This document shows positions 1,525 to 33,082 of a stretch of 39,765 nucleotides of DNA, piece after piece. Every line of letters starts with the position of its first letter. Position 1 is the first letter of the stretch. Origin of the DNA: Candidatus Woesearchaeota archaeon (GTDB lineage: Archaea > Nanobdellota > Nanobdellia > Woesearchaeales > SKIA01); the NCBI GenBank assembly GCA_007117065.1, contig SKHI01000044.1, forward strand, positions 1 through 39,765, written 5' to 3'. The notes below the pieces were generated by a model that saw only the letters and a program-made list of their open reading frames with translations, did no database searches and had not been told where the DNA came from. Made by a program: the position numbers and the translations under genes.

Positions 1525-2340
1525 TCATTCTTTCTTAAGAGTAATGATATAGAACTCTTCGTTCTCTAAGGATATTGTATCTATTATGTGTTCGTTTACT
1601 AATCGTAAAAACCATTCTCGCCTAGGTATTGTTTTTTTCTTACCAATACTTTTTGTAGGAAAGCTTGCTATGAGGTAGTTTGCCTGTAAGGCTTGTATGA
1701 TTTTTTTTGTTATGCCTTTTTGTATCGTTTCAAGACTGTCAAAGACTTTGAACGCGAACACAATATCTGTTTTGACAAATGGTTTGTCATATGTAGTTAA
1801 ATCAGCGCATGTTATTGTGTGTGGCACTTTTTTATGTGTGAAATATGCAGTAATAAGACGTAAATCTGCACATGCTAAGTCCATACAATGATATGAAGGC
1901 GTACAGGAAAGATAGGTGTATGCAAAGGGATTAAATCCACATCCTATATCTAATATGCTCTCAGGTTTTCCTGTCTTTTCAAAAAGGAGGGTGTAGAGGT
2001 AATCGTATGCTTCTCTTCTTTCATTTGTGCTTCGGTGTATCTGTAATAATTGTTGCACTGTTTCTTCATTCTCATTAACGATAAGTTCTTGTACGTACTT
2101 GTCTTTTTTTGAAGAATATTTCTTTTCGAAAAATACTCCGTACACTTCTCTTATCTGTGCACGTACCTCTTTCTTTATTTTTTGAAATATTTTCTTTTTC
2201 ATGTAGCGCTCTGGTTCTGCAGTAAAGTCTTGTTCTATTGTTGTATTCGCTATTATCTTTTGGATGATGCGTTCGGCAAATGGCCTGTGAATCCCCTGCA
2301 GCTCTCTTTTTTCAAGTAGTGCTTCAATTAAGGTTACCAT
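1525..2340 (-). CDS. FmrO/Rmt-type 16S rRNA (guanine-N7) methyltransferase homologue
   Basis: This 271-aa protein resembles the family that methylates G1405 (E. coli numbering) in the decoding centre of 16S rRNA, best known as aminoglycoside-resistance enzymes of producers and pathogens (FmrO, ArmA, RmtB). Visible hallmarks are an N-terminal helical domain, the motif HRSTNERREAYDYLY (residues about 102-116), the SAM-binding motif ILDIGCGFNPFAY (about 129-141) and the late motif ASFPTKSIGKKK (about 224-235). Family members carry HxSTxER, LDxxCGLNP and SxPTxSLxG at the same places. The gene overlaps the end of pelA by 7 nt, so the two are probably one transcript and translationally coupled. The exact target base in this organism is inferred. 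Confidence 0.75.
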   Translation of the reverse strand: MVTLIEALLEKRELQGIHRPFAERIIQKIIANTTIEQDFTAEPERYMKKKIFQKIKKEVRAQIREVYGVFFEKKYSSKKDKYVQELIVNENEETVQQLLQIHRSTNERREAYDYLYTLLFEKTGKPESILDIGCGFNPFAYTYLSCTPSYHCMDLACADLRLITAYFTHKKVPHTITCADLTTYDKPFVKTDIVFAFKVFDSLETIQKGITKKIIQALQANYLIASFPTKSIGKKKTIPRREWFLRLVNEHIIDTISLENEEFYIITLKKE

Positions 2341-3353
2341 CGTAAGATACCTGCCACTCCGCCTAATGCGTTTAGTTGTTGTGTTTGTTGTTCAAAAAAG
2401 TGTACTGTTGCTTGAGTGTTTTTTGTCTGTTCTATGAGTGCGTGTAGTTCTTCATACCAGCCTTCTTCTTTAGCTTTTTGAATGAGTGTGTGCGATACTA
2501 TGAGTTCTTTTATTCTTCCTTCATTGCTTGCTTGCATACAATCATTTCTCCCGTAGCAAGCATTGTCTTGGTGTATTGCCTTGAGTATGCGCTCTAGTGT
2601 CTGCTCTTCTTGTGCTTGCTTTTGTTTTTCTAGACTCTGTTTTAATTCTGGGCGTTTCAGTACTTCCTGTATTGCTTGTTTACCTACTGCATTGCACGTG
2701 GCAAGGGTTACTTTTTTTTGTTTTTCCTCAGGGAGAAGTGCATATACATATTCTGTCCAAAATGCTGGGCTTGCAAGGATTATTTGCGGATACGTTTTTC
2801 TTGTATCTATTTCTGTAATATGTTTTGCAAGTGTCGAGAAAAAGTTTTCTTTACCTCCTTCATACGTTTTTTTACTCACATCCCCTTTCAGATATGCTAT
2901 TTCTTGTACTCCTCGTTTTGTCAGCTCTGCGATGTGTCCTTCTTCTCTGTCAAACGTTACGATGAGTGTTTCTGCAGTTTTTTCTTGTATTGCTCTGCGC
3001 AACCTGTCTTGCGTGTACGCATCCCAATCTTTTTTAATGCGAATTTTTGTTCCCTTTTGTACGCTAAATCCGTGATGGTCTCCTTTACTTATCATATCAT
3101 CAGGCGTTTCTTCGAGTACTGTTTGTATGCGTAAAACTTCTGTTTCTAGTTCTGTATGGAGGACTTTTCCTGTGAGAAAAAATGTTTTTCTCACTTGTTT
3201 TGTTCTGTCTGTTCCAAAGGTAATTTTTCTTTCTGTTTTTGCTGATACGTAATCGCCTTCTTCAATAATTTGATTTAGTTCGTATAAATCGTCCAGGGTA
3301 TCGATGTATAGTTCTATTTCTCCTGTTGACGCATTTTCATGAAGTTTTTTCAT
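2334..3353 (-). CDS. pelA: Pelota (aPelota), ribosome rescue factor
   Basis: Pelota works with aEF1A or ABCE1 to release ribosomes stalled on mRNA lacking a usable stop codon. The 339-aa protein shows the family layout: an N-terminal Sm-like domain (GEIELYIDTLDDLYELNQII, AKTERKITF), a central eRF1_2-like domain and a C-terminal eRF1_3-like domain ending in LGGVAGILRW. The GGQ loop of true eRF1 is absent, as expected. I choose the ATG at 3353 over one at 3371. The AT tract at 3371-3386 would place the transcription start near 3353, and homologues begin at about this point. The longer reading adds only six residues. The gene is followed by the methyltransferase gene with a 7-nt overlap. Confidence 0.9.
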   Translation of the reverse strand: MKKLHENASTGEIELYIDTLDDLYELNQIIEEGDYVSAKTERKITFGTDRTKQVRKTFFLTGKVLHTELETEVLRIQTVLEETPDDMISKGDHHGFSVQKGTKIRIKKDWDAYTQDRLRRAIQEKTAETLIVTFDREEGHIAELTKRGVQEIAYLKGDVSKKTYEGGKENFFSTLAKHITEIDTRKTYPQIILASPAFWTEYVYALLPEEKQKKVTLATCNAVGKQAIQEVLKRPELKQSLEKQKQAQEEQTLERILKAIHQDNACYGRNDCMQASNEGRIKELIVSHTLIQKAKEEGWYEELHALIEQTKNTQATVHFFEQQTQQLNALGGVAGILRW

Positions 3354-3370
3354 ATTTGCTAAAGAGAACA

Positions 3371-3386
3371 TTTATATATATATTTT
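3371..3386. promoter_or_regulatory. Shared divergent TATA tract between pelA and the surface-protein locus
   Basis: A run of alternating T and A (TTTATATATATATTTT) lies between two divergent genes. It is about 26 nt from the plus-strand ATG at 3401 and about 26 nt from the minus-strand ATG at 3353, the normal archaeal distance from TATA box to transcription start. One element could therefore serve both genes as leaderless transcripts. Confidence 0.6.
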
Positions 3387-3400
3387 TGTCCTTTTAGGGT

Positions 3401-4567
3401 ATGTTTTCTAATATTCGTGCTCAAGCGTCAAAAAGCGCTGCTGGTGCAGCTGTTTTGGTCGTAATTATTGGTTTACTTATTGTTTTGTATATGCTTCTTA
3501 TTCCTCCTGATTTACGTGCACAAATTTTAGGCGATGCTCCTCCGTCCACTCCTGGTGTTCCTGGTGTTCCTGGTGTTCCTGATTCTTCTCGTCAAGTTCT
3601 TCTATCGTATGTTCCTCCTCCTTCGGTTGAACAGTTAGTTGAGCGTAGACCGCTTCCGTTATTTACCTTGCGAACAGAAACTTCTGGAAATGTATTCTTT
3701 GAGCGTTCTGGTCTTGTCGTTGAAAGAAGTGTGTTTCACTCTCAGGACGATCGTATAACTTTTTTACGTCCTGAAAATGTGCAGAATGTTCTTCTTTCCT
3801 TTTCTGTTTCTGAAGCAGTTGGTCGTTTGCGTATCACACTTAATGGCAATGTGATCTCAGACTCATTCATTAATCAACGACAGCCTGCTCCTATCGTTCT
3901 TCCTGCTAATCTTCTTTCTTCACAAAACGAGCTGGTATTTTCTGTTTCTCCGGTAGGATTCTCCTTTTGGCGCACGAATACGTATTCTTTACAGGACATT
4001 CGCATTACTGGAGATGTTGTATCCTTTTCTCGTGCGGAGCAAACGCAGCGATTTGTTGTAACTGATGTTGTTGATGTCCGGTCTGCTTTTTTGGAGTTCT
4101 ACACAGACTGTGTGCGCTCTTCAGGGCGATTGAACATTATGCATAACGGAAATCTTTTGTACAGCGGGTTTCCTGAATGTGGTGTTCCTTTTTCATTTGA
4201 ATTGGCCGTGAATAGGCTTTCTGAGGGGGAGAACTCTTTGACGTGGTCTCTTTCTGAAGGTGAATTACTTATTGATCAACCTGAAGTTATTGTTTCTCGT
4301 CGATCGACTCCTCAGCAAGGTGTGTTTTCTCTTTCTTCTCAGCATATTGAAGCAATTCACCGAGGAGCGTCAATTCAGCTTTCCCTACGTTTTGCTCAAC
4401 CTGGAGCGTCAGGTGTTGTTCTTCTCAACGATCAGCCGCTAACGTTTAGAACCCAACAACAAGAATTTTCTGGTTCAGTTAATCAGTTCATTCGTCAGGG
4501 AGCAAACACTATTCGTATTCGCGAGTCTTCTGTTCCTGTTGTATTAGTTGAGGTGTACGTCGGGTAG
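3401..4567 (+). CDS. Membrane-anchored extracellular beta-rich protein, unknown function
   Basis: I do not recognise a named family for this 388-aa protein. It starts with a short basic segment (MFSNIRAQASKSAAG) and one hydrophobic helix (about residues 15-36). A Pro/Gly/Val stretch follows, with PGVPGVPGVP near 50, and then about 320 residues predicted to be mostly beta strands. These read like two or three consecutive sandwich domains with recurring LNGNV/HNGNL/LNDQP strand-loop units. A single N-terminal anchor with the bulk outside fits a surface or pilus-like component. The AT tract at 3371-3386 gives a leaderless start at the ATG. It is the first gene of a co-oriented run to 10227 and is followed after 11 nt by a polytopic membrane gene. 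Confidence 0.75.
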   Translation: MFSNIRAQASKSAAGAAVLVVIIGLLIVLYMLLIPPDLRAQILGDAPPSTPGVPGVPGVPDSSRQVLLSYVPPPSVEQLVERRPLPLFTLRTETSGNVFFERSGLVVERSVFHSQDDRITFLRPENVQNVLLSFSVSEAVGRLRITLNGNVISDSFINQRQPAPIVLPANLLSSQNELVFSVSPVGFSFWRTNTYSLQDIRITGDVVSFSRAEQTQRFVVTDVVDVRSAFLEFYTDCVRSSGRLNIMHNGNLLYSGFPECGVPFSFELAVNRLSEGENSLTWSLSEGELLIDQPEVIVSRRSTPQQGVFSLSSQHIEAIHRGASIQLSLRFAQPGASGVVLLNDQPLTFRTQQQEFSGSVNQFIRQGANTIRIRESSVPVVLVEVYVG

Positions 4568-4578
4568 GTGGTTTTTAG

Positions 4579-6222
4579 GTGAGTTCGGTAATTAGAAGTG
4601 GTTACGTATTAATTTTGTTGCTTGCATCCCTATTTTTGTTATGGTTTGACATGTTTCGTCTTGGTTTTGATAGGATAGGAAACATCATGTTTCCCCTCTT
4701 ATTATATGGCATATTTGCTATTTTGGTATTTGCATTCTCTTATGATCATAGCAAGGATAATCGTCCGTTACTTCGTCTTGTTCTTATAAAAACAATTCTT
4801 GTCTTAGGCATTCCGTATGCTCTGCAACTTGTTGCTAGTGGCGCGTATTCTGCCTTGATTTCTCACAGTGTTTTTGGTGCTGTTTTCCTCTCCCTTATCT
4901 CTCACATGTACGCTTCATTAATTGTGGTGTACTTATTTGGTTGGGTGCAATATCTTTTAAGCGAGTTTGCAGCTGCAGGAGGAACTCTTGGCCACATAGC
5001 AGATATCGTCAATAAAATTTGTCTTGTTCTTATTTTGTTTGCTATTTTCATACCGTTATTTTCTGCTTTAGAACAGGAGCGAGCGGCTTCTGCAACTCCT
5101 ATGAGCCCTATTTATGAACCTGTTAGTTTTTCAACCCTTTTAGGTGATGCGTGGGCTTTGCTTCTTCGCACATGGGAAATGGTTCGCACTGGTGCATCTG
5201 AGCGTGCAGAGACTGTTATGAATGCCACCCTTCCACGTCATCATGGGGTAGTTGAAAATTCTCAGGGCCAGTTATTAGGTGTGCGTGTTATTGAGAATCG
5301 TGCCTTACAAAGCGTGTACGAAATTCATGTTGATGAGAATAATGTGCCTCTTCCAAATCAGGAGGGTTCAATTATCTGGACGGGTATGATTGAGTCACGG
5401 ACCTTTTCTGATGTAATGGATATTTCTTTATCTTGTGTATATGAGTCTGGAGATTTTAGTATCTCAGTTCCTGCTCGACCAGACACCATGTCTGTTTTCT
5501 TTACTGGATCTCAAGCGGAACGATTCCCATATGATTGTTCTATTCCTCTCTCTCTAATAGCTGATAACTACGACTTTAGTGGTCGATTTTCTACAGTTGT
5601 ATCATTTGATTTTCCCACTTGGGGTCATGCTACTATGGTGTTTGCTGATCGCACTCAACTAACTTCTCTTCGACAACAAAATAGGGATGTTGCTTCGTTT
5701 TACGGTATTGATAGTTTCGTTACTGCGCGGTACACTCCAGGTCCTGTGAGTTTAGGTATGTTTGAGCGGATTAGTCTTCCTATTGGTATTGATATTGACT
5801 CTCCTGAACGAAACGTTCTTCCTGCGTTTGGTGTAACTATTAGTAATGTATGGGCGGGACAAGGAAAGATTTCTTCTCTTCACAGTCTTATCTTTCAAGT
5901 TCCAGAACCATTTATGCTTGATGTAGATTCGTGTTTAGGTATCGATTCCCACCAACGACCTCACATTCACCAGGCGGGTTTGTTCGAGAACGAGGAGATT
6001 CCTGATGGGTATCGGTGGTATGTCTTCTCTTCAATAGAATTTCCTCAGCAAACGCAATTACGCACCATTCGATGTCCACTTCGTGTACAGAATAATAATT
6101 TTGCTAACCTTCTTGGTCCTGACTTGTCTGCACGTCAAGCCACGTTTGTTGCAATGGCTGATTATCGATACGAGTCAAGAATTATTGTTCCTATTCAAGT
6201 TCGCAGGGTGAGGTATTCATGA
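4579..6222 (+). CDS. Polytopic membrane protein with large extracellular beta domain
   Basis: This 547-aa protein begins with a GTG codon. Its N-terminal third contains about five membrane helices (about residues 8-25, 33-52, 66-88, 94-122, 145-165). The remaining ~380 residues look exported and beta-rich, with scattered cysteines (LSCVYESG, PYDCSIPLSL, IRCPLRV). The last ~40 residues (ATFVAMADYRYESR, then a V-I-V strand) resemble the C-termini of the three lipoproteins downstream, so the extracellular part seems related to them. The stop overlaps the next start as ATGA. No enzyme motif is visible. A role as membrane platform of a surface assembly is inferred from neighbours. Confidence 0.75.
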   Translation: MSSVIRSGYVLILLLASLFLLWFDMFRLGFDRIGNIMFPLLLYGIFAILVFAFSYDHSKDNRPLLRLVLIKTILVLGIPYALQLVASGAYSALISHSVFGAVFLSLISHMYASLIVVYLFGWVQYLLSEFAAAGGTLGHIADIVNKICLVLILFAIFIPLFSALEQERAASATPMSPIYEPVSFSTLLGDAWALLLRTWEMVRTGASERAETVMNATLPRHHGVVENSQGQLLGVRVIENRALQSVYEIHVDENNVPLPNQEGSIIWTGMIESRTFSDVMDISLSCVYESGDFSISVPARPDTMSVFFTGSQAERFPYDCSIPLSLIADNYDFSGRFSTVVSFDFPTWGHATMVFADRTQLTSLRQQNRDVASFYGIDSFVTARYTPGPVSLGMFERISLPIGIDIDSPERNVLPAFGVTISNVWAGQGKISSLHSLIFQVPEPFMLDVDSCLGIDSHQRPHIHQAGLFENEEIPDGYRWYVFSSIEFPQQTQLRTIRCPLRVQNNNFANLLGPDLSARQATFVAMADYRYESRIIVPIQVRRVRYS

Positions 6223-7133
6223 GAGTTGTTTTTTTGTGTTTGTTGGTATTAGTTTTAGCTTCCTGTTCTACTCCATCACAGTCACAAACTGCAATTACTG
6301 GAACTGATGGCGTGGTTCTTACCCCTGTATATGTTCCTTCATCTGTATTTGAAGGCGAGGACTTTTCTATCACGTATCGTTTAGAAAACAGAGGTTCTGT
6401 TCCCATAACGCAAGATAATCCTGGAAGTCTCATTGTCAATGTTGATCCTTTATATCTTTCTTTCATAGATAGTTCTTCTCGTTTTCCCAACCAGTATTTT
6501 TGGCTTTCTCCTCGTACGAGATTTTCACAAGGTGAATCTGCATTTGTAAATCTTCATTTACGCGCAAATTCCATTGATCGTTTTTCTCAAGAAATCCGGA
6601 CCCGCATCCTCACTACCGTTTGTTATCCCTATGAGTCCATAATTACCTCTGAGGTGTGTATTGAGCGCGATAGACAAACAGACCCTGGTTCAGTAGTGTG
6701 TCGCGCAGGCCCTGTCAGTCCAGCTTCCGTAGGTTCTCCTCTCGTAGTTAATTCTGTCCAGACTCGAACTGGTCGAGTAGGTGAGGGTTCTGATGCACGT
6801 CTAGTTCCTCAATTTCGTATTGAGTTAGTTAACAGAGGTTCTGGTATTCCCTCTGCAGGTACCTGCGATTCACAGGGTGGTTTAAACAGTGCGTTAGTTC
6901 AGGTCTCTGTATTAAATGAGCTCTTGGATTGTCAAGGGATGACCGATCCTGATTTTGATGGTTTTGGTGAAGTTCGTTTTATCAATAATCGTGCTTCTCT
7001 TTCTTGTACTATTCCGATTTTTTCATCTTCTCTATTCCCTGCCACTCAGGGAAATTTTTTGAGTTTAGTAACTGTTCACATGAAATATTCATACAGGGAG
7101 TCTGACCAGTCGGAGGTTCGAATTGTCCGATAA
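6219..7133 (+). CDS. Lipoprotein, member 1 of a paralogous surface family
   Basis: The 304-aa product has a lipoprotein signal (MRVVFLCLLVLVLASC) with the lipobox Cys at residue 16. The mature part resembles beta-sandwich 'enhanced intracellular-loop-free' surface domains: a strand unit ITYRLENRGSVPI, a Cys-paired segment with CYPYES and EVCIERD, a further VVCRAG, a PLVVNSVQTRTGR strand, and a C-terminal C-x-IPI plus YSYRES. These units recur in order in the lipoproteins at 7165 and 9199. The gene overlaps the upstream membrane-protein gene by 4 nt, which suggests coupled translation. The function is unknown. The family likeness was judged by eye and not by a computed alignment. Confidence 0.8.
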   Translation: MRVVFLCLLVLVLASCSTPSQSQTAITGTDGVVLTPVYVPSSVFEGEDFSITYRLENRGSVPITQDNPGSLIVNVDPLYLSFIDSSSRFPNQYFWLSPRTRFSQGESAFVNLHLRANSIDRFSQEIRTRILTTVCYPYESIITSEVCIERDRQTDPGSVVCRAGPVSPASVGSPLVVNSVQTRTGRVGEGSDARLVPQFRIELVNRGSGIPSAGTCDSQGGLNSALVQVSVLNELLDCQGMTDPDFDGFGEVRFINNRASLSCTIPIFSSSLFPATQGNFLSLVTVHMKYSYRESDQSEVRIVR

Positions 7134-7164
7134 GTATTTTAATATCTCAAAGAATACTGTGTTT

Positions 7165-8559
7165 ATGCGTACGTTTCTTTATGTCGGGTTATGTTTGCTG
7201 TTGGTCTTTTCAGGATGCATGGCTGACTCTCCCTCTTCGTCTCGTTCTTCAGGTGTTGATTTGCGTGTAATTAATGCTGCTGAAATCGCACACGTATACG
7301 CTCCTTTTTCTCAATTGCTTCAGGAGCCTCTTGTTCGCCAGGGAGAAGATTTTGTTCGGATATTTGACCTAAATGTTCTTGTTCATAATAGAGGGTATGC
7401 AGACTCTCTTGTCGCGCTTTACATTACTGGTTTTGATCCTAATTTATTTGAGGTTGTTCCTTTAGGTCCGTATGTACAAAATATTGATACTCGTTTTTGT
7501 TACAAGGACATTTCCATTCGAGATAGTGGTACGTATTCTGTGTATGCGTTATGCACTGCTTTTGATGATCTTTTGCTTGGAGGTGGTGTTTCAGTCGATC
7601 CTTCTAGTACGCGTTTCTCTGTTGAAGGATATAGGTTGAATATTGGCAATTGGTTGGCTGCTCTTACTGAGCGCGTCACAGGTATTGAGAATAACTTTTT
7701 TACTTGGTTTGGCGATTTATTTAATGGCATTAATTTTAACTGTAATTTTGAGACCAATCCTCGTGATGAGAATACGCGTAGGGGTACGTGCTCAATTTCA
7801 TCTAGTTTCCTTGATTTTGTCTCTGGTTCGCATTCCCGTGGAGCCCTTCTTCTTGCTTTGTACGGCGGTGATGTGCGTGCATGCGGTAATGGATGCATTC
7901 TTGTTCCGTCTCCACGTGTGCCTCGTCCGTTTTTAGCAGGGAATACGGCGCGGTATCCGGGTGGCGAAATGCAATACATAGATTTTGGCGTATTCCTTAA
8001 TAGGGGTCGTTGGCCCATTAATCTGGAAGAACATTCTCAATTGTTTCAAATTAGTGCGTGTTACCTCTATACTACATATGTAACTCCTACTGTGTGTATC
8101 GATCCTGCTCCTGGAAGGAATACTGATGGTGTTTGTCGTTCTGGTGTTCAGGCGCTTTCTCAAAATCAGCAAGCTCCTCTGCGCGTAACGCATATTGAGC
8201 AGTCTAATCAGGGTCCGCGCATCATGTTTACCATTCATGTTCAAGATACGCGCGGTGGACGCGTGTTTCATCCTGGCGCTATTGACTTTTGCGCTCCTTC
8301 AGCACCTGAAACATTTACGCGTGAATTAAGAGATATGGCTAAGGTTATTGATGCACGCATTCTTGGTTCGTTAGAGTCTCTTTCTTGTCAGCAGGAAGGA
8401 AATATTCGTTTAACAAATGGGCGTGGAAGTATTAATTGTTTCTATGATATACCTGCTTCTGCCTTTGCTTCAGGTCCGTATCAGACCACCTTAAATATTG
8501 AGATTGGATATTTATATCGTGAGATACAGACTGTTCGTTCTGTAATTACGCGAATTTAA
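7165..8559 (+). CDS. Lipoprotein, member 2 of a paralogous surface family
   Basis: I place the start at the ATG at 7165 because it puts a lipoprotein signal (MRTFLYVGLCLLLVFSGC) directly at the N-terminus. An upstream TTG at 7123 would add 14 residues and bury the signal. The mature ~445 residues contain an N-terminal NVLVHNRGYADSL unit, an extra cysteine-bearing middle region, and the shared order CYLYTTYVTPTVCID, GVCRSG, APLRVTHIEQ, GGRVFHP, SLSCQQ and YLYREI. It is the longest of the three lipoproteins, with an insertion between the first strand unit and the Cys segment. Its first ATG lies 31 nt after the previous stop, so cotranscription is likely. No catalytic motif is seen. Confidence 0.8.
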   Translation: MRTFLYVGLCLLLVFSGCMADSPSSSRSSGVDLRVINAAEIAHVYAPFSQLLQEPLVRQGEDFVRIFDLNVLVHNRGYADSLVALYITGFDPNLFEVVPLGPYVQNIDTRFCYKDISIRDSGTYSVYALCTAFDDLLLGGGVSVDPSSTRFSVEGYRLNIGNWLAALTERVTGIENNFFTWFGDLFNGINFNCNFETNPRDENTRRGTCSISSSFLDFVSGSHSRGALLLALYGGDVRACGNGCILVPSPRVPRPFLAGNTARYPGGEMQYIDFGVFLNRGRWPINLEEHSQLFQISACYLYTTYVTPTVCIDPAPGRNTDGVCRSGVQALSQNQQAPLRVTHIEQSNQGPRIMFTIHVQDTRGGRVFHPGAIDFCAPSAPETFTRELRDMAKVIDARILGSLESLSCQQEGNIRLTNGRGSINCFYDIPASAFASGPYQTTLNIEIGYLYREIQTVRSVITRI

Positions 8560-8596
8560 TGCAGTTTTTTCTTGTATGCGTACTAAATACATAACA

Positions 8597-8627
8597 TTTA
8601 AATAGTAGTTACTACATAGTAGTTATA
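8597..8627 (+). promoter_or_regulatory. TATA box plus direct/inverted repeat ahead of the secreted-protein gene
   Basis: TTTAAATA at 8597-8604 sits about 27 nt before the ATG at 8627. Between them the 10-mer ATAGTAGTTA occurs twice (8602-8611 and 8616-8625), and GTAGTTACTAC at 8606-8616 is an inverted repeat with 5-bp arms. The repeats overlap the TATA box and the expected start site, so they could be an operator. This is inference. Confidence 0.45.
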
Positions 8628-9160
8628 TGAAATACTTGTTTGCCATACTTTTTATGGGTTTGCTCTTTGCAATCCCGCCAGCAGATGCAGCGTTCCATTT
8701 TCAAGGCTACAGTAGTGGCCTTGTTCGTTTTGATGGCCCAATGCAAGTCTCTCTCTCAGGTTCTGACTATCGCATTGCTTTCGCTCAAGATCAGCACAAT
8801 ATGCGCTTTTCACATCAAACGCCAACATCTCAATCGGGACTTGCTTTCTCGCGTCCAATAACTGTACAAAATCACTGGCATGAAAATCCCAATCTTAATT
8901 TTAGAACTGTGGAAACAGGTCCTTGGCAACTAGATCGTGCGGGAGCTCACTTTGGTCAATCCCAGTTTGCAGTCAATAGAAATCCTATGGGTGAATTAGG
9001 CTGGTCTGCGAACATAAATAATAATAGGGGGCCTCTTGTCTCGCCAGTTGCGGGCAGAAATGCATTTGCACCACCTGGTAGTCATCCGTTCGCATTCCAA
9101 CCGCGCTCTTCAGTACCGTTTCCATCCACTGGTTCGGCAACTGTGAATACGTGGCGCTAA
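8627..9160 (+). CDS. Small secreted protein, unknown function
   Basis: The 177-aa product carries a Sec signal peptide (MKYLFAILFMGLLFAIPPADA) with a likely cleavage after Ala21. The mature ~155 residues are rich in Phe, Asn, Gln, Gly and Pro, with recurring short FxxxQ/HFxQSQF-type strands and no cysteine. No lipobox is present, so the protein should be released or held by partners. It has its own TATA box at 8597-8604 and lies between two members of the lipoprotein family, which suggests a surface role. I do not recognise the family. Confidence 0.72.
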   Translation: MKYLFAILFMGLLFAIPPADAAFHFQGYSSGLVRFDGPMQVSLSGSDYRIAFAQDQHNMRFSHQTPTSQSGLAFSRPITVQNHWHENPNLNFRTVETGPWQLDRAGAHFGQSQFAVNRNPMGELGWSANINNNRGPLVSPVAGRNAFAPPGSHPFAFQPRSSVPFPSTGSATVNTWR

Positions 9161-9198
9161 AGCAAACATTTAAAAATACTTTTTAACCATATTTGTAT

Positions 9199-10227
9199 AT
9201 GAAATATTACGTAGCTATTGCGTGTACGCTCCTTTTTTTAGCAGCAGGATGTGCTTCCTCTGACGGTAACGATTCAACTTCAGGTCCTTTTGTAGGGGGA
9301 TCTGGTGGCCTTGCAGCAAGTTTTGCTGAGGCAATGCCCCCTCCTGTTGTCTTTGATGACGCTCAAGGCGAGTTTGGAATTGGTATTGTTTTACAAAATA
9401 TTGGTGAAAGTTCTATTGGTCCAGGAACGCTTAATCCCTATGGGCACATAGAGATCATTGGTATAACGCCACAAAATTATGGGTTATTTAGTCAAAGAGA
9501 CTTATTTGTGACTTTTGCGGAAGCCGATGTTGTACTAGAACCTACAAGACGTATTGACGGACGTATAATTCCAGGAGAATCGACTCTTGTATCTTTTGAA
9601 GGTCTGACGTATGTCCCAAACATCTTTGGTGATAAAACTGAGACTATTCGTGCAAATATCTGTTATGAATACAGAACATATGCACAGGGTTCTGTTTGTA
9701 TTAAGGATAATCTTCTTGAGCTTGCAACTGATGATTCGATTTGTTCTTTGTCTGGTGCAAAGCAAGTATCGTCCAGTGCAGCACCTATTCAAGTAAGAAA
9801 CCTGGTCCAGACTCCTGTTGGACGTGATAGAATTCAAGTTACGTTTAATGTTGTTAATGTTGGTGGAGGAAATGTTTACCAGCCCTACAGTTTATCAGGT
9901 CCAGCAGACAGAAGTGCTATTTGTTCACCGTCTGCAGGCGTAAATAGAGCAAGAGATATCATTCATGCTCGCGTAACTCTTGGTGCGTCTAATCTTGGTT
10001 TTGACATATCTTGTCAAGGATTTACTGGTGGAAACGAAGGGTTTGTACGGATGCCACAAGGCAGCGCCACAGTGACATGTACAGTAAACACAAGAGATGT
10101 TGATGCTGGACGTGTTGCTATTGAAAACTTCAATATTGAGTTATTCTACACATACATGCAGTTTATTCAGACACCAATCGTAATTCGTGATACAGAGCTT
10201 GGCTTTGTCGAACCTGGTTTACAATAA
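9199..10227 (+). CDS. Lipoprotein, member 3 of a paralogous surface family
   Basis: The start is the ATG at 9199. A TTG two codons upstream is unlikely, because TTTAAAAATA at 9169-9178 places transcription start near 9199. The 342-aa product has the lipoprotein signal MKYYVAIACTLLFLAAGC. Its mature part repeats the family plan: GIGIVLQNIGESSI, then CYEYRTYAQGSVCIKD, SICSLSG, APIQVRNLVQTPVG, VVNVGGGNVYQP, ISCQGF, VTCTVN and FYTYMQ. It extends about 15 residues past the last shared strand. It has its own promoter and is the last gene of the surface locus. Confidence 0.82.
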   Translation: MKYYVAIACTLLFLAAGCASSDGNDSTSGPFVGGSGGLAASFAEAMPPPVVFDDAQGEFGIGIVLQNIGESSIGPGTLNPYGHIEIIGITPQNYGLFSQRDLFVTFAEADVVLEPTRRIDGRIIPGESTLVSFEGLTYVPNIFGDKTETIRANICYEYRTYAQGSVCIKDNLLELATDDSICSLSGAKQVSSSAAPIQVRNLVQTPVGRDRIQVTFNVVNVGGGNVYQPYSLSGPADRSAICSPSAGVNRARDIIHARVTLGASNLGFDISCQGFTGGNEGFVRMPQGSATVTCTVNTRDVDAGRVAIENFNIELFYTYMQFIQTPIVIRDTELGFVEPGLQ

Positions 10228-10254: not shown

Positions 10255-11205
10255 TTATTTATGTAGCATAAACTGTGCGAGAAGTGCTTCAAGTTGCACA
10301 AATTCGTCACTACCTTCCACAATTCTAAATTCTGCCTCTCCACATGCGCGCACGAGAACAAGTTTTTGCTCATCACTTGCTTCAACATCCCATATGATTG
10401 ATTGTAATTGAGTGATCACATCTATTCCGCTCATACCATAGGAGAGCATTGTTTTAAGAAGGAGGTCTCTTGCTTGAATAAACATGTTTTGTTGTGCAAG
10501 TTGTAATACTTGTTTTAATTCTTCAGGTTTAGCAAGGGATGCCATTTGATGAATTGCTTCAACAGTAAATGTTTGTTGATGTGTAGCAACTGCTTGCATA
10601 ATGTTTTCTAGTCTTCGCACATCTCCTTTGCTTACGGTGAATAGTGCTTCTTTTACCTCCTCCGAGATAGCTATTTGTTCCTGCGAGGCAATACCTTCTA
10701 TTATGGCGTATACATCTTCTTTTTGTAATGGTTTAAATTTAAAAACAGCACATCTACTCTGTATAGGGTCTATTATTTTTGATGCATAATTGCAACTGAG
10801 GATAAAACGACAGCTAGAAGTATATTTTTCCATCGTTCTTCTCAGTGCTTGCTGAGCTTCTTTTGTCAGTGCATCTGCTTCATCAAGATAAATTATTTTA
10901 AAAGGTACCGTAGATATGCTTTTTGTTCGTGCAAAGTCTTTTATGGTGTTTCGTACAATATCAATTCCTCGTTCATCAGAGGCGTTTAATTCAAGCGTAT
11001 TCTCTTTCCAGACTGTTCCAAACAATGTCTTTGCGATTACCACTGAAAGTGTTGTTTTTCCCACTCCTGCTGGTCCGGTAAACAACAGGTGCGGAAGATT
11101 TTTGGCTTCAACAAACCCTCGGACAACGCGTACGATTTCTTGCTGTCCTGATATCTCATCAAAGGTTTGAGGGCGATATTTTTCAGTCCAGATAGTCGTA
11201 TTCAT
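10255..11205 (-). CDS. rfcS: Replication factor C small subunit (clamp loader)
   Basis: This 316-aa AAA+ ATPase loads PCNA at primer-template junctions, as several copies with one RFC large subunit (not in this window). Visible motifs are the N-terminal RFC box WTEKYRP, Walker A GPAGVGKT (residues 44-51), Walker B IIYLDEADAL, and sensor 1/SRC around FILSCNYASKIIDPIQSRC. The C-terminal collar helices end at FMLHK. The length is typical. It follows a PRC-barrel gene by 17 nt on the same strand and probably shares its transcript. The partner clamp gene is at 30775. Confidence 0.95.
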   Translation of the reverse strand: MNTTIWTEKYRPQTFDEISGQQEIVRVVRGFVEAKNLPHLLFTGPAGVGKTTLSVVIAKTLFGTVWKENTLELNASDERGIDIVRNTIKDFARTKSISTVPFKIIYLDEADALTKEAQQALRRTMEKYTSSCRFILSCNYASKIIDPIQSRCAVFKFKPLQKEDVYAIIEGIASQEQIAISEEVKEALFTVSKGDVRRLENIMQAVATHQQTFTVEAIHQMASLAKPEELKQVLQLAQQNMFIQARDLLLKTMLSYGMSGIDVITQLQSIIWDVEASDEQKLVLVRACGEAEFRIVEGSDEFVQLEALLAQFMLHK

Positions 11206-11222: not shown

Positions 11223-11510
11223 TTAAATGATGTCTTCTTCAGCAATTACCATGAAATCTCCCATTGCAATAACTGCAGAAAAGGGGATGAGAAGTTGTCC
11301 TTCTTTACTTCTTTCAAGGTCTAATTTTTCAGTATATGTAGTAGGATTTGAAAGTACCAGGTGTATGAGTTCTCCTGTTCTTGATTCAAAAATAATATCT
11401 CCTGCTTCACCAAAACGTTTTCCAGTTTTTGAAACAACTGTTTTTCCTATGAGCTGCTTAGAAAATCTTTTTTCATCGTTTTTAATTTCTTTGCGTGAAT
11501 CTAATGACAT
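11223..11510 (-). CDS. PRC-barrel domain protein
   Basis: Starting at the ATG at 11510, the 95-aa protein has a PRC-barrel signature: LIGKTVVSKTGKRFGEAGDI, a middle ELIHLVLS strand, and a C-terminal LLIPFSAVIAMGDFMVI. The open frame extends 48 codons further upstream, but TTTAAATA at about 11533-11541 puts the transcription start at this ATG. PRC-barrels are small beta-barrel adaptors found in photosynthetic reaction centres, RimM-type RNA-processing proteins and many archaeal small proteins. A specific partner cannot be deduced. It precedes rfcS in the same direction and diverges from the PAN gene. A second PRC-barrel gene lies at 23598. Confidence 0.82.
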   Translation of the reverse strand: MSLDSRKEIKNDEKRFSKQLIGKTVVSKTGKRFGEAGDIIFESRTGELIHLVLSNPTTYTEKLDLERSKEGQLLIPFSAVIAMGDFMVIAEEDII

Positions 11511-11616
11511 GTACTGTATCAATATGTTTAGGTATTTAAAGGTTATTATTTGTTTTTTTATGTCTATAGTTGTTTTGTAGCTAATGTTTTTAAATGACGC
11601 TTTATTATCGGCATAT

Positions 11617-12777
11617 ATGGGAGATGTTAATAAAGAAGATCTTGAAAAAGTCATGTATGATTATACAGTAAACACTGCAGAGCTGGAAGAAGAAAATCAA
11701 TTGTTACGTCAAACAATAAAGCAACTTCGCTCCGAGGTTGAACGCTATAGGGTTCCTCCACTAATGGTGTGTGAGTTGTGCGAACAATCAAGTGAAGGTT
11801 GGATCATAAAAATTCCTAATGGAAATAAATTTTTTACTCTTGCAGCTCCTGAATGTACCGATCTTGTCTCAGGAGATACGGTTTTGTGTGAGCAAAAAAA
11901 TTTGACTATTCTGAAGAAAATTAATGCGGACAAGAAGTTTAATGTTGAGCAGTTTACTATTATCACAAAACCTTCAATCACCTTTGCAGATATCGGAGGT
12001 TTAAGTGAGCAAATTACGGAGATCCAAGAAGTTGTCGAGCTTCCTCTCAAAAAGCCTGAATTATTTAACAAATTAGGTATACAGCCTCCCAAAGGTGTTT
12101 TATTGTATGGTGAGCCAGGTACAGGAAAAACGCTACTTGCAAAAGCTGTTGCGAATGCTTCAGATGCTACATTTATCGAAGTTGTTGGCAGTGAGCTTGT
12201 ACAAAAATTTATTGGCGAAGGAGCAAAACAAATAAAAGAAATTTTTCAACTTGCTCGAGAACGCGCGCCTGCAATAGTGTTCATTGATGAGATTGATGCA
12301 CTAGCTAGTAAACGTATTGAGATCGGTACCAGTGGTGAACGCGAAGTTCAGCGAACATTTATGCAGTTACTTGCTGAGTTAGATGGATTTAAACCCCTGG
12401 GTAATATTAAAATTATTGCTGCGACGAATAGAAAGGACATTCTTGATCCTGCTATCGTTCGACCAGGGAGATTCGACAGACTTATACACATACCTAAACC
12501 CGATATTAACGGCATAAAAACCATTTTTGGCATCCATACAGCATCTATGTCCTTAGATAAAGATGTTGATGTTGCAGTGCTTGCTGAGCGCATTTCTAAA
12601 GAAAAGTTCTCTGGTGCAAGTATTCGTAATGTATGTACCGAGGCAGGATATCTTGCTATTCGTGAGGACAGAGTAACGGTTTCTCAACAAGATTTCGAGA
12701 CTGCTATAACAAAGATAATTAAGTCTCAACAGGAATCAGAAGAGGATGCTGCTGATTTCTTACCGATGTTTGGTTAA
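11617..12777 (+). CDS. pan: Proteasome-activating nucleotidase (PAN), AAA ATPase
   Basis: PAN is the hexameric ATPase that unfolds substrates and feeds them to the archaeal 20S proteasome. From the N-terminus the protein (386 aa from this start) has a coiled coil (about 10-45), an OB domain (about 48-105) beginning RVPPLMV, and an AAA domain. The AAA domain has Walker A GEPGTGKT (165-172), pore loop KFIGEGA, Walker B IVFIDEIDAL and the arginine-finger segment RPGRFDR. I prefer this ATG because TTTTTAAAT at 11587-11595 lies about 26 nt upstream. An in-frame ATG at 11584 would add 11 residues. The last three residues are Met-Phe-Gly where PAN usually ends hydrophobic-Tyr-X. The 3' end overlaps the convergent trm5 gene by 18 nt. 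Confidence 0.93.
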   Translation: MGDVNKEDLEKVMYDYTVNTAELEEENQLLRQTIKQLRSEVERYRVPPLMVCELCEQSSEGWIIKIPNGNKFFTLAAPECTDLVSGDTVLCEQKNLTILKKINADKKFNVEQFTIITKPSITFADIGGLSEQITEIQEVVELPLKKPELFNKLGIQPPKGVLLYGEPGTGKTLLAKAVANASDATFIEVVGSELVQKFIGEGAKQIKEIFQLARERAPAIVFIDEIDALASKRIEIGTSGEREVQRTFMQLLAELDGFKPLGNIKIIAATNRKDILDPAIVRPGRFDRLIHIPKPDINGIKTIFGIHTASMSLDKDVDVAVLAERISKEKFSGASIRNVCTEAGYLAIREDRVTVSQQDFETAITKIIKSQQESEEDAADFLPMFG

Positions 12778-14590: not shown

Positions 14591-15530
14591 TTTCTTTCAC
14601 CGTTATTTCTTGTAATTCTTCTGCTTCTTGTGCTTTTTGAGTTACTTTTCCTGTCGTAAGATATATTGCGGGAAGGAAGTGTTTTTTTGCTTGTAATATG
14701 GCGCTTGCAAGGTCTCCATCATTACTTTGTTTTTTATTTTTTGCTTTGATAAAAAAAGTTACTAATCCAATGGCTGTAGGTATTAATCCTATGATATCTA
14801 ATTCGCTATTTCTTCGCACCTCAGTTATTTTTTGTATGCGTATATTGTTTTCTTTACAATACGTCTTTATTTCTGAACTAAATTCTGAATCTGGTTGCGT
14901 TTCAAGACGTGCTTGGTCTGTTACAAGAGCGGGTTTCTCTTTAGTTTCCTGTTTTTTCGTATGTTTGTTATTTTCTGAAATTGTTTGCGTTACGTCTTTT
15001 TCTCCTTCTGTTTCTTGTGCTGATTTTTGTATTTCCGCCAGTTCTTGTTGTCTCATCGGACGAATCTGCTCTTCTGTTGTTTTTCCAGTGAGTATTTCGC
15101 GTATTTTTTTTTGTGCTTCTTCTGGGCTTACCAGATAGTATTTGTAGAAGAGTTCTTCTCCTTGTTTTGTTTCTACGCGCAGGGGTGTTGCGAAGTCTTT
15201 TATTTGTGAGAGGCTTACTCGTGTGAGTGGATCTTGCTCCTGTGCGCGCAGTATTCTTTTTTCTTGTAAGAGTTGGGCTGTCCTTCTATCTTTTTCATTC
15301 AGATGTTGTATCAACTGTTCTAGCTTTTCGCGTTGTTCTATAGTATATGCAAACATGCTTGTTCCCAGTTGCAGGTGTGTAAAGCGTATTTTTTGTTCGT
15401 GTTTTAATGTAGACAGATAGACGTTTATCATTGTCGCATCTGGTTGCTGGAGTAATTGTTTTATTTTATTTGCAATGATTGGTCCATGCCTTTTCACTAT
15501 ATCAAAGACTTCTTCTGCTGTTATGTTCAT
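14580..15530 (-). CDS. Winged-helix protein with C-terminal restriction-nuclease-like domain
   Basis: I do not recognise a named family for this 316-aa protein. The first ~70 residues look like a winged helix (AEEVFDIVKRHG, then IKQLLQQPDATMINVYLSTL), followed by a second DNA-binding-like segment and a charged linker (about 165-215). The last ~90 residues have the outline of a PD-(D/E)xK fold: RRNSELDIIGLIPTAIG, then FFIKAKNKK, then IYLTTGKVT. The usual E-x-K is K-A-K here, so the domain may be non-catalytic or my placement may be off. The ATG at 15530 has a GAGG Shine-Dalgarno site about 7 nt ahead. It is the first gene of an operon with fen1 and trm5, which suggests a DNA repair or replication role. 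Confidence 0.75.
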   Translation of the reverse strand: MNITAEEVFDIVKRHGPIIANKIKQLLQQPDATMINVYLSTLKHEQKIRFTHLQLGTSMFAYTIEQREKLEQLIQHLNEKDRRTAQLLQEKRILRAQEQDPLTRVSLSQIKDFATPLRVETKQGEELFYKYYLVSPEEAQKKIREILTGKTTEEQIRPMRQQELAEIQKSAQETEGEKDVTQTISENNKHTKKQETKEKPALVTDQARLETQPDSEFSSEIKTYCKENNIRIQKITEVRRNSELDIIGLIPTAIGLVTFFIKAKNKKQSNDGDLASAILQAKKHFLPAIYLTTGKVTQKAQEAEELQEITVKEIGS

Positions 15531-15566
15531 AGTTCCTCAAATGCGCTATAGGTTGTTTGTTCGTAA

Positions 15567-15580
15567 TCCTTATATATGTT
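15567..15580. promoter_or_regulatory. TATA box between divergent genes
   Basis: CTTATATATG at 15569-15578 is about 25 nt before the GTG at 15598 on the plus strand. Read the other way, it gives a ~17-nt leader carrying a GAGG site for the minus-strand gene starting at 15530. This position is the reason for preferring GTG 15598 over the upstream ATG at 15541, which lies before the box. Confidence 0.5.
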
Positions 15581-15597
15581 TGTATATCAGTCATGTA

Positions 15598-16026
15598 GTG
15601 AATACAAAGGTACTTCTTGTTGTTGTAGGTTCTTTTCTTGCAGTGTTATTTTTCTTCATCCTCGTATTGCCCTTATTCTCGTTTACTTCTATTTCACCCA
15701 TAAACATGGTTCCTGAGCACTGTAGTGTATCGTCTGAATTTGTATGTGTTCACACGTATGGCTCCGATTCCCTATTGTTAATCGAACTACGTTCTCGATT
15801 ACAGGATACTGCGTCTTTAGAATCGTTTTCTTTATCTGTTGACGATAATTTTGTCTCTTGTGATTTCGAGTCCAGTTCACTTACTTCACACCAAAGCATT
15901 CTTATTTCTTGTAACTTGACTTTGTTTTCATTTGAGTATGCTCGTTTGCCCTTTACGTTTACGTATACTTTGGAGGGTGGTTCGTTTCTGCGCGAAGCAT
16001 CAGGAGAAGTATTTATTCGTGTATAG
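15598..16026 (+). CDS. Single-pass secreted/pilin-like protein, unknown function
   Basis: With the GTG start at 15598, the 142-aa product has a two-residue polar start (MNTK), a hydrophobic helix of about 24 residues, and an exported domain. That domain has four cysteines in two pairs (PEHC...FVC and VSC...ISC) and a beta-rich C-terminus ending FTYTLEGGSFLREASG-EVFIRV. This layout resembles small pilin-like or surface proteins common in DPANN genomes, but no prepilin peptidase motif is clear. An ATG at 15541 would add a 19-residue basic extension, which the TATA box position argues against. Nothing nearby gives a function. Confidence 0.65.
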   Translation: MNTKVLLVVVGSFLAVLFFFILVLPLFSFTSISPINMVPEHCSVSSEFVCVHTYGSDSLLLIELRSRLQDTASLESFSLSVDDNFVSCDFESSSLTSHQSILISCNLTLFSFEYARLPFTFTYTLEGGSFLREASGEVFIRV

Positions 16027-19739: not shown

Positions 19740-22154
19740 ATGACTCGCGATGTCGTTTCTGTACGCGTAATAGAAGACGAAATGAAAGATGCATATATGG
19801 CATATGCTATGAGTGTTATCGTAGGAAGAGCTCTTCCTGACGTCCGTGATGGTCTTAAACCAGTGCATAGACGAATTCTTTATGCCATGCACGATCTTGG
19901 TATGCGTCACAACACACCATACAAGAAAAGTGCACGTATCGTCGGTGAAGTTTTGGGTAAGTATCACCCACATGGCGATTCTGCAGTATATGATGCACTT
20001 GTCCGTCTTGCTCAGGAGTGGAATATGTCCTCTCCTTTGATTGATGGTCAAGGAAATTTTGGGAGTCAGGATGGCGACTCAGCTGCTGCGATGCGTTATA
20101 CGGAAGCGCGTCTTGCAAAGATATCTCAAGAACTTCTTCTTGATCTAGAAAAGGATACTGTTGATTGGAGTGATAATTTTGACGGTTCATTAAGGGAGCC
20201 TTCTGTTTTACCTTCTATTCTTCCAAATTTATTGGTTAATGGCAGTGCTGGTATTGCAGTTGGTATGGCAACAAATATGCCTCCGCACAATATTTCCGAA
20301 GTGGTTCAAGCCCTCATCGCTTACATTAAGAATTCTGATATCTCTCTTACAGAAATACTTTCTCTTCTTCCAGGACCTGATTTTCCAACCGGCGGAACCA
20401 TTTGTGGGCGCTCAGGAATATATGATGCATATTCTACTGGTAGGGGAAAGATTAAATTACGAGGGGTTATTCAACGAGAAGGCGATCAACGTTTAGTAAT
20501 AACTGAAATCCCGTATCAAGTTGTAAAAGCAGATTTAGTCACACAAATTGCTGAACTTGTTTCTGAAAAACGCATTGAAGGAATTCGTGATTTACGTGAT
20601 GAAAGTAATAGAAAAGGAATGCGTATTGTTGTTGAGCTGAAGCGTGATGCGCAGCCAGAAATAGTTGAGAATGCATTATTTAAGTATACGCGTCTCCAAC
20701 AAACATTTGGAGTAATTAACCTTGCTCTTGTTAACGGACAGCCTAAGGTTCTTGCTATAAAAGAGTTATTTTTTCAATATGTGTCGCATAGAAGAGAGGT
20801 CATTACGCGAAGAACAGTATATGACCTAAATAAAGCAGAGCAAAGAGCGCACATTCTTGAAGGGCTTCTTATTGCTCTGGAATCAATTGATTCTATCGTT
20901 GCCTTAATCAAGCAAAGTGCTTCTTCAGAAATTGCTCGTGAGCAGTTAATCGCTTCGTTTTCGCTCTCTGAAGAACAAGCAAAAGCCATACTCGATATGC
21001 GTCTTTCTAAACTAACAGGCTTAGAGCAAGAAGGGATAAAAAAAGAACACGCACAGCTTCTTGTTGCAATTGCTGATTACAAGGACATCCTTGCAAATCC
21101 TGTACGCATAGATGCTATTATTGTTGACGAATTATCTCATTTACAGCAAACATATCCTGTTGCTCGACGAACACAAATATCAGATGATTTTGAAGATATT
21201 GATATCGAGGATTTAATAGAATCTGAAGACATGGTGGTTACTATTAGCAATTCTGGTTATGTAAAACGTCTGCCTGTGGATACATATCACGCACAGCACA
21301 GAGGTGGTAAAGGAATTATTGGCGCAACTACCAAAGAAGATGATTTTATCGAACATCTCTTTGTTGCAAACACGCATGCATACCTTCTCTTTTTTTCAAA
21401 CAGGGGTCAGGTCTATTGGAAAAAAGTATATCATATTCCTGAGTCAAGTAGAACTGCTAAAGGAACTGCAATAATCAATCTTTTAGGGATAGAAAAAGGC
21501 GAGTCAATTAGCAGTATTATTGCAGTTGACTCTTTTGATTCTATACGTAACCTTGTTTTTTGTACCAAAAATGGTATTGTAAAGAAGACGAGTTTAGAAG
21601 AGTATAGTAGGCCGCGTTCAGGAGGAATTCATGCGATTAAATTGGATTCTGATGATGATCTTGTCAACGTAGTTCTTACCTCTGGTTCTGATAAGCTTAT
21701 CTTTAGTAGCTCGCAAGGATACTCTTTAGTCTGTGAAGAGTCTGATATTCGCTCTATGGGTCGTTTTACCAGAGGGGTTATTGCCATGAAGTTGCGTTCA
21801 AAAGATGTACTCGTAAATGTCAGTGTTCTTCAAGAGGGTGCCGAGTTACTTACTGTTACGGAAAACGGATATGGTAAACGTACTGCGTTAACTGAGTACC
21901 CTCTACAGAGAAGAGGGGGTCTTGGCGTAAAAAATATACAGACCTCTTCGCGTAACGGATTAGTTGTTGCTTCAAGAGTTGTTTCTCAAACAGATGACTT
22001 GCTCTTAATTACGCAAAAAGGTATTATTATTCGTACAAAAGCAAGTGAGATTACTGTTATTGGAAGGAATACGCAAGGTGTTCGTATTATGCGTCTTAAT
22101 GCTGATGATTCTCTGCAGGCTCTCGCACGAATTATTGTTGAAGAAAACGAATGA
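19740..22154 (+). CDS. gyrA: DNA gyrase subunit A
   Basis: The 804-aa protein is the breakage-reunion subunit of a type IIA topoisomerase that introduces negative supercoils with GyrB (not in this window). It shows [37 protein letters not shown], the catalytic Tyr120 in [10 protein letters not shown], and a C-terminal beta-pinwheel of repeated blades ([53 protein letters not shown]). The GyrA box reads QHRGGKG against the usual QRRGGKG. TTTATAAA near 19709-19716 is 27 nt before the ATG. Archaea that have gyrase acquired it from bacteria, so this gene records an old transfer. Confidence 0.95.
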
Positions 22155-32530: not shown

Positions 32531-33082
32531 ATGAAATACTATCTTTTGTGCGCGCTTCTCGTGCTTGCAGGATGTACAGGTACTACAATGGAAAACCCTA
32601 CTATTATTATTGAAACCAATAAAGGAACTATTACCGCAGAGTTATTTGCACAGGATGCTCCTGTGACGACAGAGAATTTTCTTCGTTATGTTGACGAGCA
32701 GTTTTTTGATGGCACCGTCTTTCACAGGGTAATTCCTGATTTTATGATTCAAGGTGGAGGATTTACTCCTGATGGTACTCAGAAAGATACGCATGCACCT
32801 ATTCGTCTAGAAACAAGTCCTTCTTTACGCAATGACAGAGGAACGCTTGCTATGGCAAGAACAAATAATCCTAACAGTGCTACTGCACAATTTTTTATCA
32901 ATGTGGTTGATAATGACTTCTTGAATGCAGGCCCTGGCAATGATGGGTATGCTGTGTTTGGACGCGTTATTTCTGGTATGGATGTTGTTGATGAAATTGT
33001 TTCTGTTGATAGCTCATCTCGTGGGTTTCATCAAGACTGGCCTGTTGAAGATGTTATTATCACAAGTATTACTCGTTCATGA
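32531..33082 (+). CDS. Cyclophilin-type peptidyl-prolyl isomerase, lipoprotein
   Basis: The 183-aa protein combines a lipoprotein signal (MKYYLLCALLVLAGC, Cys15) with a complete cyclophilin domain: NKGTITAELFAQDAPVTTEN, then FFDGTVFHRVIPDFMIQGGG, NPNSATAQFFINVVDNDFLN and GYAVFGRVISGMDVV. His, Arg and Phe of the active site (FHRVIPDFMIQGG) are kept. It would catalyse proline isomerisation outside the cell at the membrane, perhaps for the secreted proteins at 3401-10227. ATATAAAC at 32501-32508 is a TATA box 27 nt upstream. It overlaps the deoxyhypusine synthase gene as ATGA. Confidence 0.92.
   Translation: MKYYLLCALLVLAGCTGTTMENPTIIIETNKGTITAELFAQDAPVTTENFLRYVDEQFFDGTVFHRVIPDFMIQGGGFTPDGTQKDTHAPIRLETSPSLRNDRGTLAMARTNNPNSATAQFFINVVDNDFLNAGPGNDGYAVFGRVISGMDVVDEIVSVDSSSRGFHQDWPVEDVIITSITRS

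Follow-up and report, generated by a model that had tools for sequence, protein, structure and literature searches.

Woesearchaeota are tiny, mostly uncultured archaea. Lytic transglycosylases have already been published from them and from Pacearchaeota, and some members of both groups have been suggested to live as episymbionts or predators of bacteria (PMC8204110, PMC9723730, PMC11537232). One such family, the murein-like lytic transglycosylase fam00969, belongs to module 98, which unites 51 families, most of them unknown, common to the two groups (PMC8204110); GH23 genes figure in a second account (PMC9723730). Bacteria-killing peptidoglycan hydrolases of archaea – the Woldo type – form a further precedent, and Nanoarchaeota are named among the phyla rich in homologues of such weaponised hydrolases (PMC12352652). 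A surface structure has also been described: the attachment organelle of the Nanobdellota archaeon YN1, which is suggested to occur throughout the phylum and whose proteins are stated to be unknown (PMC11420986). Here we analyse a 39,765-nucleotide stretch (the window) from a Candidatus Woesearchaeota archaeon, contig SKHI01000044.1 (C29) of a genome of ~0.9 megabases (G000). It holds a five-gene core cassette – ANCH, POLY, LIPO1, LIPO2 and LIPO3, beginning at positions 3401, 4579, 6219, 7165 and 9199 – and our favoured, if tentative, reading is that the cassette encodes a surface complex for cell-cell contact, armed in some lineages against bacterial walls.

With the published transglycosylases the cassette shares the archaea in which they occur, the catalytic family and the proposed bacterial-wall target; the passages of those papers on these enzymes treat genes and families singly, and mention neither a fixed five-gene surface cassette nor hydrolase fusions (PMC8204110, PMC9723730). 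The families of module 98 may include those of the cassette (PMC8204110). The Woldo type resembles the cassette in placing a catalytic M23 domain in archaea that have no peptidoglycan wall; its members are modular enzymes with peptidoglycan-binding domains, whereas in the cassette the enzyme forms a single domain of a protein that is anchored in the membrane and encoded within a conserved block (PMC12352652). The likeness to the YN1 organelle is that of a surface contact structure in the same phylum (PMC11420986). Neither the cassette nor its fusions are described in the relevant passages of these accounts, supplements, subscription journals and preprints apart; the principle of a surface complex to which wall-cutting enzymes can be added does have analogues in bacteria. 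No cassette protein of the window matches a Pfam or NCBIfam family above cut-off, nor a credibly related solved structure among PDB sequences, and judged by sequence the core families are absent from both family databases.

A conserved cassette with paralogous lipoproteins

Our searches covered one phylum, with samples – mostly metagenome assemblies – of 145 genomes of the order and 279 of the phylum. The LIPO family is present in 136 of the 145, and in 99 of the 102 that are at least 90% complete, which makes a cassette without a database family a core part of the envelope. Matches to the ANCH profile extend to 219 of the 279 genomes, some 60 of them in sister orders. Gene content was compared over 41 loci: the window plus 40 further stretches, of which L057 is too short for the cassette. 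Because the loci were chosen for holding LIPO, its count of 40 is by construction; the remaining counts are not, and stand at 38 for POLY, 35 for the replication factor C small subunit, 33 for ANCH, 32 for a PRC-barrel protein and 30 for pelota, many of the absences falling at contig ends.

The arrangement of the genes is equally stable. Wherever at least three cassette genes are present they lie on the same strand (67 of 67 loci); the order is complete in 51 of these, and pelota is divergent from the cassette in all 36 adjacent pairs. Spacing in the window is operon-like (11, -4, 31, 67 and 38 base pairs in turn from ANCH to LIPO3), the start of LIPO1 overlapping the stop of POLY by 4 base pairs; across loci the two genes overlap in 43 of 59, by exactly 4 base pairs in 29. 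An earlier note on this DNA, whose gene coordinates we confirm throughout, proposed that these proteins together with a small secreted protein encoded at 8627 form one uncharacterised surface assembly, which perhaps brings an episymbiont into contact with its host. The cassette is kept across the order and in sister orders, and this conservation of order, strand and neighbours, with ANCH as a constant member, argues for the assembly and for the place of ANCH within it. The protein at 8627 has to be removed from the proposal: a similar-looking 180-residue protein occupies the same place only in a locus of the same genus (L032), with a similarity that is not significant by phmmer clustering, and it is a genus-level passenger, not core.

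Variation in the cassette is itself informative. In sister orders the block is mostly ANCH-POLY-LIPO-LIPO, that is, with two lipoproteins. One family, f89, combines ANCH and a protein the size of POLY with three proteins whose N-terminus is a membrane helix and not a lipobox. Most of the latter keep the final Y-x-Y strand: the type of anchor has switched and the layout has been kept. The N-terminal helices of these modules (L334:1798-4751, L335:10080-12949) carry G-Q-like motifs, and the f89 cassette adjoins FEN1- and methionine-aminopeptidase-like genes, not pelota. The tested genomes of family f106 gave no cassette match, and two single-contig genomes of family f105 gave no match to ANCH, LIPO or POLY by profile. 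These two may come from cultured episymbionts of archaea that are relatives of YN1; should this guess hold, the cassette is probably not the YN1 attachment organelle.

The note also held that the three lipoproteins share an ordered set of features and arose by duplication. Similarity between single LIPO1, LIPO2 and LIPO3 sequences is modest (BLASTP E = 6e-05, 4e-08 and 1e-05). Profile-profile comparison of the three positions over ~300 aligned columns yields E = 1.5e-64, 3.5e-36 and 9.2e-42, far beyond the best reversed-profile decoy (E = 0.026), and on this evidence the three are true paralogues. Across 33 orthologues of LIPO3, 16 columns are invariant, among them the lipobox Cys18, GG33-34, N67-G69-E70, Y158, C167, C182, P196, C272, C294, Y317 and Y319. 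In the AlphaFold2 model of LIPO3 (predicted local distance difference test score, pLDDT, 90.7; predicted template modelling score 0.86), which consists of two immunoglobulin (Ig)-like beta-sandwiches, the listed features find structural places: the N-x-G strand opens domain 1, the CYxYxT...CI strand closes it and the final Y-x-Y strand closes domain 2, each closing strand being 24 residues long (145-168 and 307-330). For the lipoproteins, neither unrelated folds nor a locus lost from relatives was found.

A quick tree, with weak deep branches, places LIPO1 and LIPO2 of the order in one supported group (Shimodaira-Hasegawa-like approximate likelihood ratio 99) and LIPO3 with the second lipoprotein of the sister orders; two lipoproteins therefore look ancestral, a duplication having given three. 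Tree and profiles alike support origin by duplication. The differences in length are real, and long forms of LIPO2 (~430-460 residues) are common to its orthologues in one clade. It is hardly credible that exported, beta-rich proteins came to share these features by a mere coincidence of composition. Weak BLASTP scores between single sequences, and the lack of any for POLY, are what such a coincidence would give; it does not account for profile E-values of 1e-36 to 1e-64 beside much weaker decoys, for invariant cysteines and tyrosines, or for positional orthology in the tree, where the position labels need 8 changes against 74 by chance. On the comparison of profiles with reversed decoys we reject chance for the lipoproteins; for POLY set against LIPO, chance may account for the likeness.

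Of 120 LIPO members, 109 show the lipobox pattern; in most of the remaining 11 a cysteine also follows the hydrophobic stretch, in a form that escapes the pattern. Signal peptide and lipobox cysteine together mark the family as predicted lipoproteins of bacterial type. Among known domains those of the CARDB/COG1361 type offer a beta-sandwich with an N-x-G opening strand, as in LIPO; 6 of 47 LIPO relatives match CARDB (PF07705) weakly at E ≤0.1 (best 6.2e-05), and the lipoproteins of the window show no match to it at E up to 1. LIPO differs from such domains in being a two-domain lipoprotein with its own cysteine pattern. Comparison of LIPO with viral structures gave no informative match.

Peptidoglycan hydrolases fused to cassette proteins

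At least 23 of the 145 genomes of the order, as counted by hand from match coordinates, encode a cassette protein with a peptidoglycan hydrolase domain. Most often this is a C-terminal SLT domain on POLY, above the Pfam cut-off in L049, L056, L065, L070, L292-L295, L297-L299 and L303 and below it in L061 and L296. M23 takes that position in L052, L055, L304 and L305 (and, below cut-off, in L306), SLT resides on LIPO1 instead in L044 and L300, and SLT matches lie in the cut-off end of a presumed POLY in L301 and L302. Among ~154 listed SLT places (a hand count of rows) 18 are in cassettes, against ~0.9 expected by length, with P ~2e-18 if the places are treated as independent, related though the genomes are. 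In an alignment of the Pfam-located segments, most cassette SLT domains retain the catalytic Glu as well as the YN motif. For M23, L052, L304 and L305 have complete zinc motifs and L055 has broken ones.

A critical issue is the substrate of these enzymes. The Mur ligase family is present in 3 of the 145 genomes; as a rule, therefore, these archaea lack peptidoglycan of their own, and remodelling of a self wall is unlikely. The substrate is probably a foreign, bacterial wall, and the recurrence of the hydrolase domains favours contact with bacteria. Intact hydrolases in apparently peptidoglycan-free cells would turn the loose idea of predation on bacteria by some DPANN archaea into named genes and testable proteins. 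That the same type of enzyme is fused to either of two neighbouring products, together with tight coupling and constant order of the genes, strongly suggests that the cassette products co-assemble in one extracellular complex.

The POLY of the window has neither an SLT nor an M23 domain. Elsewhere in its genome are a 401-residue, exported-looking SLT protein with the catalytic Glu-Ser kept (L307:1178-2383, contig C3), and a 733-residue protein that combines M23, a GH108 muramidase and PG_binding_3 (L308:2197-4398, contig C13) and whose M23 domain has HLD for HLH.

The main rival to a contact device is a general envelope complex, needed by every cell to fix or space its surface layer or a zone like a periplasm; hydrolases would be occasional, lineage-specific additions to it. 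This we regard as possible, if somewhat doubtful. The LIPO family is near-universal in the order, its inheritance is mostly vertical as judged by position in the lipoprotein tree, the site among housekeeping genes is stable, and in f89 membrane helices have replaced the lipid anchors with the order of modules kept: all fit such a complex. Taken alone, however, it gives no account of recurrent, catalytically intact hydrolases in cells nearly without Mur ligases, nor of absence from the two f105 genomes.

POLY, ANCH and a model of the proposed complex

The earlier note took the exported part of POLY for a fourth copy of the lipoprotein module. The ending on which this was based is present – a cysteine, ~28 residues, then YRYES – and the homology itself is suggestive but unproven. 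POLY and LIPO3 profiles align with E = 5e-4 and an HHalign probability of 32% over the last 42 columns. In a further comparison POLY reaches P = 0.0033 with LIPO1 (246 columns), 0.023 with LIPO2 (26 columns) and 0.0015 with LIPO3 (119 columns), reversed controls giving P ≥0.26 and the unrelated pair ANCH-POLY also reaching P = 0.023. BLASTP of POLY against the lipoproteins gave no match, hhalign on separately cut LIPO and POLY domains a signal too weak for use, and a search for related loci with the single POLY sequence found none. Profile matches of POLY to Piezo, TMEM120B and ryanodine receptors among PDB sequences fall within its membrane segments, and we set them aside as an effect of composition.

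The number of predicted membrane segments in POLY varies: the window copy has about five and most copies within the order have between four and six, but 7 of 13 from sister orders have just one. What is conserved is thus the ectodomain and not a channel. The same variation bears on a reading of the cassette as the remnant of a type IV secretion or conjugation system, with POLY a VirB6- or PrgK-like protein bearing a VirB1-like hydrolase. A polytopic protein with C-terminal SLT or M23, lipoproteins and an anchored partner in one operon bear a superficial similarity to such systems. No AAA_10 (VirB4-type) ATPase match was found in the genome of the window, and only 2 of 40 relatives have one above cut-off; no Pfam family of this kind is matched by the cassette proteins, and a POLY reduced to one membrane segment leaves no conserved channel. 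On the ATPase search and the variable topology we rejected this reading, which we hold to be very improbable.

ANCH presents a different architecture. Its AlphaFold2 model (pLDDT 86.5) has a helix at 13-33, a short juxtamembrane helix, a flexible linker and three jelly rolls, and the N-terminal sequence features are a class-III-like K/R-G/A-Q motif and an LPPxxRxxLL juxtamembrane motif. Foldseek returned 46 matches at E ≤0.001 with the model, the best including GH35 beta-galactosidases and BcsB, and also reelin, at the low template modelling scores that a flexible query of several domains would lead one to expect; two ANCH members have weak Pfam matches to BcsB. The modelled domains thus resemble carbohydrate-binding jelly rolls, and may bind sugars. 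ANCH differs from BcsB and GH35 in having no catalytic partner and no cellulose synthase and in forming a separate sequence family. The loose K/R-G/A-Q pattern occurs in 61 of 64 ANCH sequences and a prepilin peptidase in the genomes of 39 of 40 relatives, but processing of ANCH is uncertain because the usual pilin-type Glu at position 5 is missing.

These properties invite comparison with the bindosome of Sulfolobus: ANCH would bind sugars or glycans for uptake with the lipoproteins as partners, and the hydrolases would free environmental peptidoglycan fragments as food. The class-III-like signal motif joined to carbohydrate-binding-like folds and the near-ubiquity of prepilin peptidase agree with such a role, and the hydrolases could scavenge dead cell walls. 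Yet the conserved cassette contains no transporter gene, the lipoproteins are Ig-like and not of solute-binding fold, and the pilin-type residue is lacking, so that we consider glycan capture unlikely.

We return to the proposed cell-cell contact complex. ANCH would hold out three lectin-like jelly rolls and POLY would anchor a larger ectodomain, around which two or three Ig-like lipoproteins would pack as a scaffold; jelly rolls and Ig modules together may grip the surface of a partner cell. Where that partner is a bacterium, a hydrolase on POLY or LIPO1 would open its wall at the site of contact, acting on a living cell. In the species of the window the hydrolase would act in trans, from the separate SLT and M23-GH108 proteins, which we infer to work with the cassette.

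Several points weigh against this model. The core is near-universal, yet hydrolases within the cassette are seen in only about one sixth of the sampled genomes, so that a more basic role may have come first and contact with bacteria later. The hydrolase domains of L292 and L293 and the M23 of L055 appear degenerate, and the Foldseek matches of LIPO are to generic Ig folds. Physical assembly and partner binding are inferred.

A broader version of the model is conceivable, though we would not call it probable: a class-wide machine that lets Woesearchaeota and the sister orders fasten onto bacteria and use them as food, built on one shared anchored scaffold whose wall-cutting heads can be exchanged. 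If true, it would be the first molecular candidate for a parasitic or predatory interface between an archaeon and a bacterium.

Coordinates and neighbouring sequence

Positions of the cassette genes and their flanks are collected in Table 1.

Table 1. Genes of the cassette and its flanks in the window.
Feature	Coordinates	Strand	Description
ANCH	3401..4567	+	N-terminal membrane helix and three galactose-binding-like jelly rolls (predicted); first gene of the core cassette
POLY	4579..6222	+	About five N-terminal hydrophobic segments (hydropathy), then a predicted exported, two-part beta-rich ectodomain ending C...YRYES
LIPO1	6219..7133	+	Lipobox LASC; two predicted Ig-like domains; profile homology to LIPO2 and LIPO3
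LIPO2	7165..8559	+	Lipobox FSGC; ~230 extra N-terminal residues; shared module from near residue 255
Small secreted protein, 177 residues	8627..9160	+	Between LIPO2 and LIPO3; not core
LIPO3	9199..10227	+	Lipoprotein; two tandem Ig-like beta-sandwich domains (AlphaFold2)
Pelota	2334..3371	-	Pfam eRF1_1, eRF1_2, eRF1_3; divergent flank of the cassette; syntenic marker outside the complex
Replication factor C small subunit	10255..11205	-	Pfam Rep_fac_C, AAA; convergent flank; syntenic marker outside the complex
PRC-barrel protein	11223..11654	-	Pfam PRC; flank; syntenic marker outside the complex

Beside pelota, at 1525-2340, lies a gene for a protein of the FmrO-type rRNA methyltransferase family (Pfam E = 3.5e-19), which recurs in 13 of the loci compared. 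The G+C content of the cassette (4001-10000) is ~0.415-0.425, that of most flanking sequence lower, at ~0.35-0.39. Further along, at 15475-16026, lies a gene of uncertain start for a small exported-looking, cysteine-containing and beta-rich protein without a Pfam match, which may be related to the cassette modules as a single-domain form. An open frame for 804 residues at 19740-22154, named by eye, resembles subunit A of gyrase or topoisomerase IV and is bacterial in type. At 32531-33082 a cyclophilin-type prolyl isomerase (Pfam Pro_isomerase, E = 1.2e-48) bears the lipobox LVLAGC and is possibly a surface-anchored chaperone. Finally, one other genome of the order contains giant open frames of ~15,800 and ~9,200 codons (G023:C41:61834 and G023:C97:28412).

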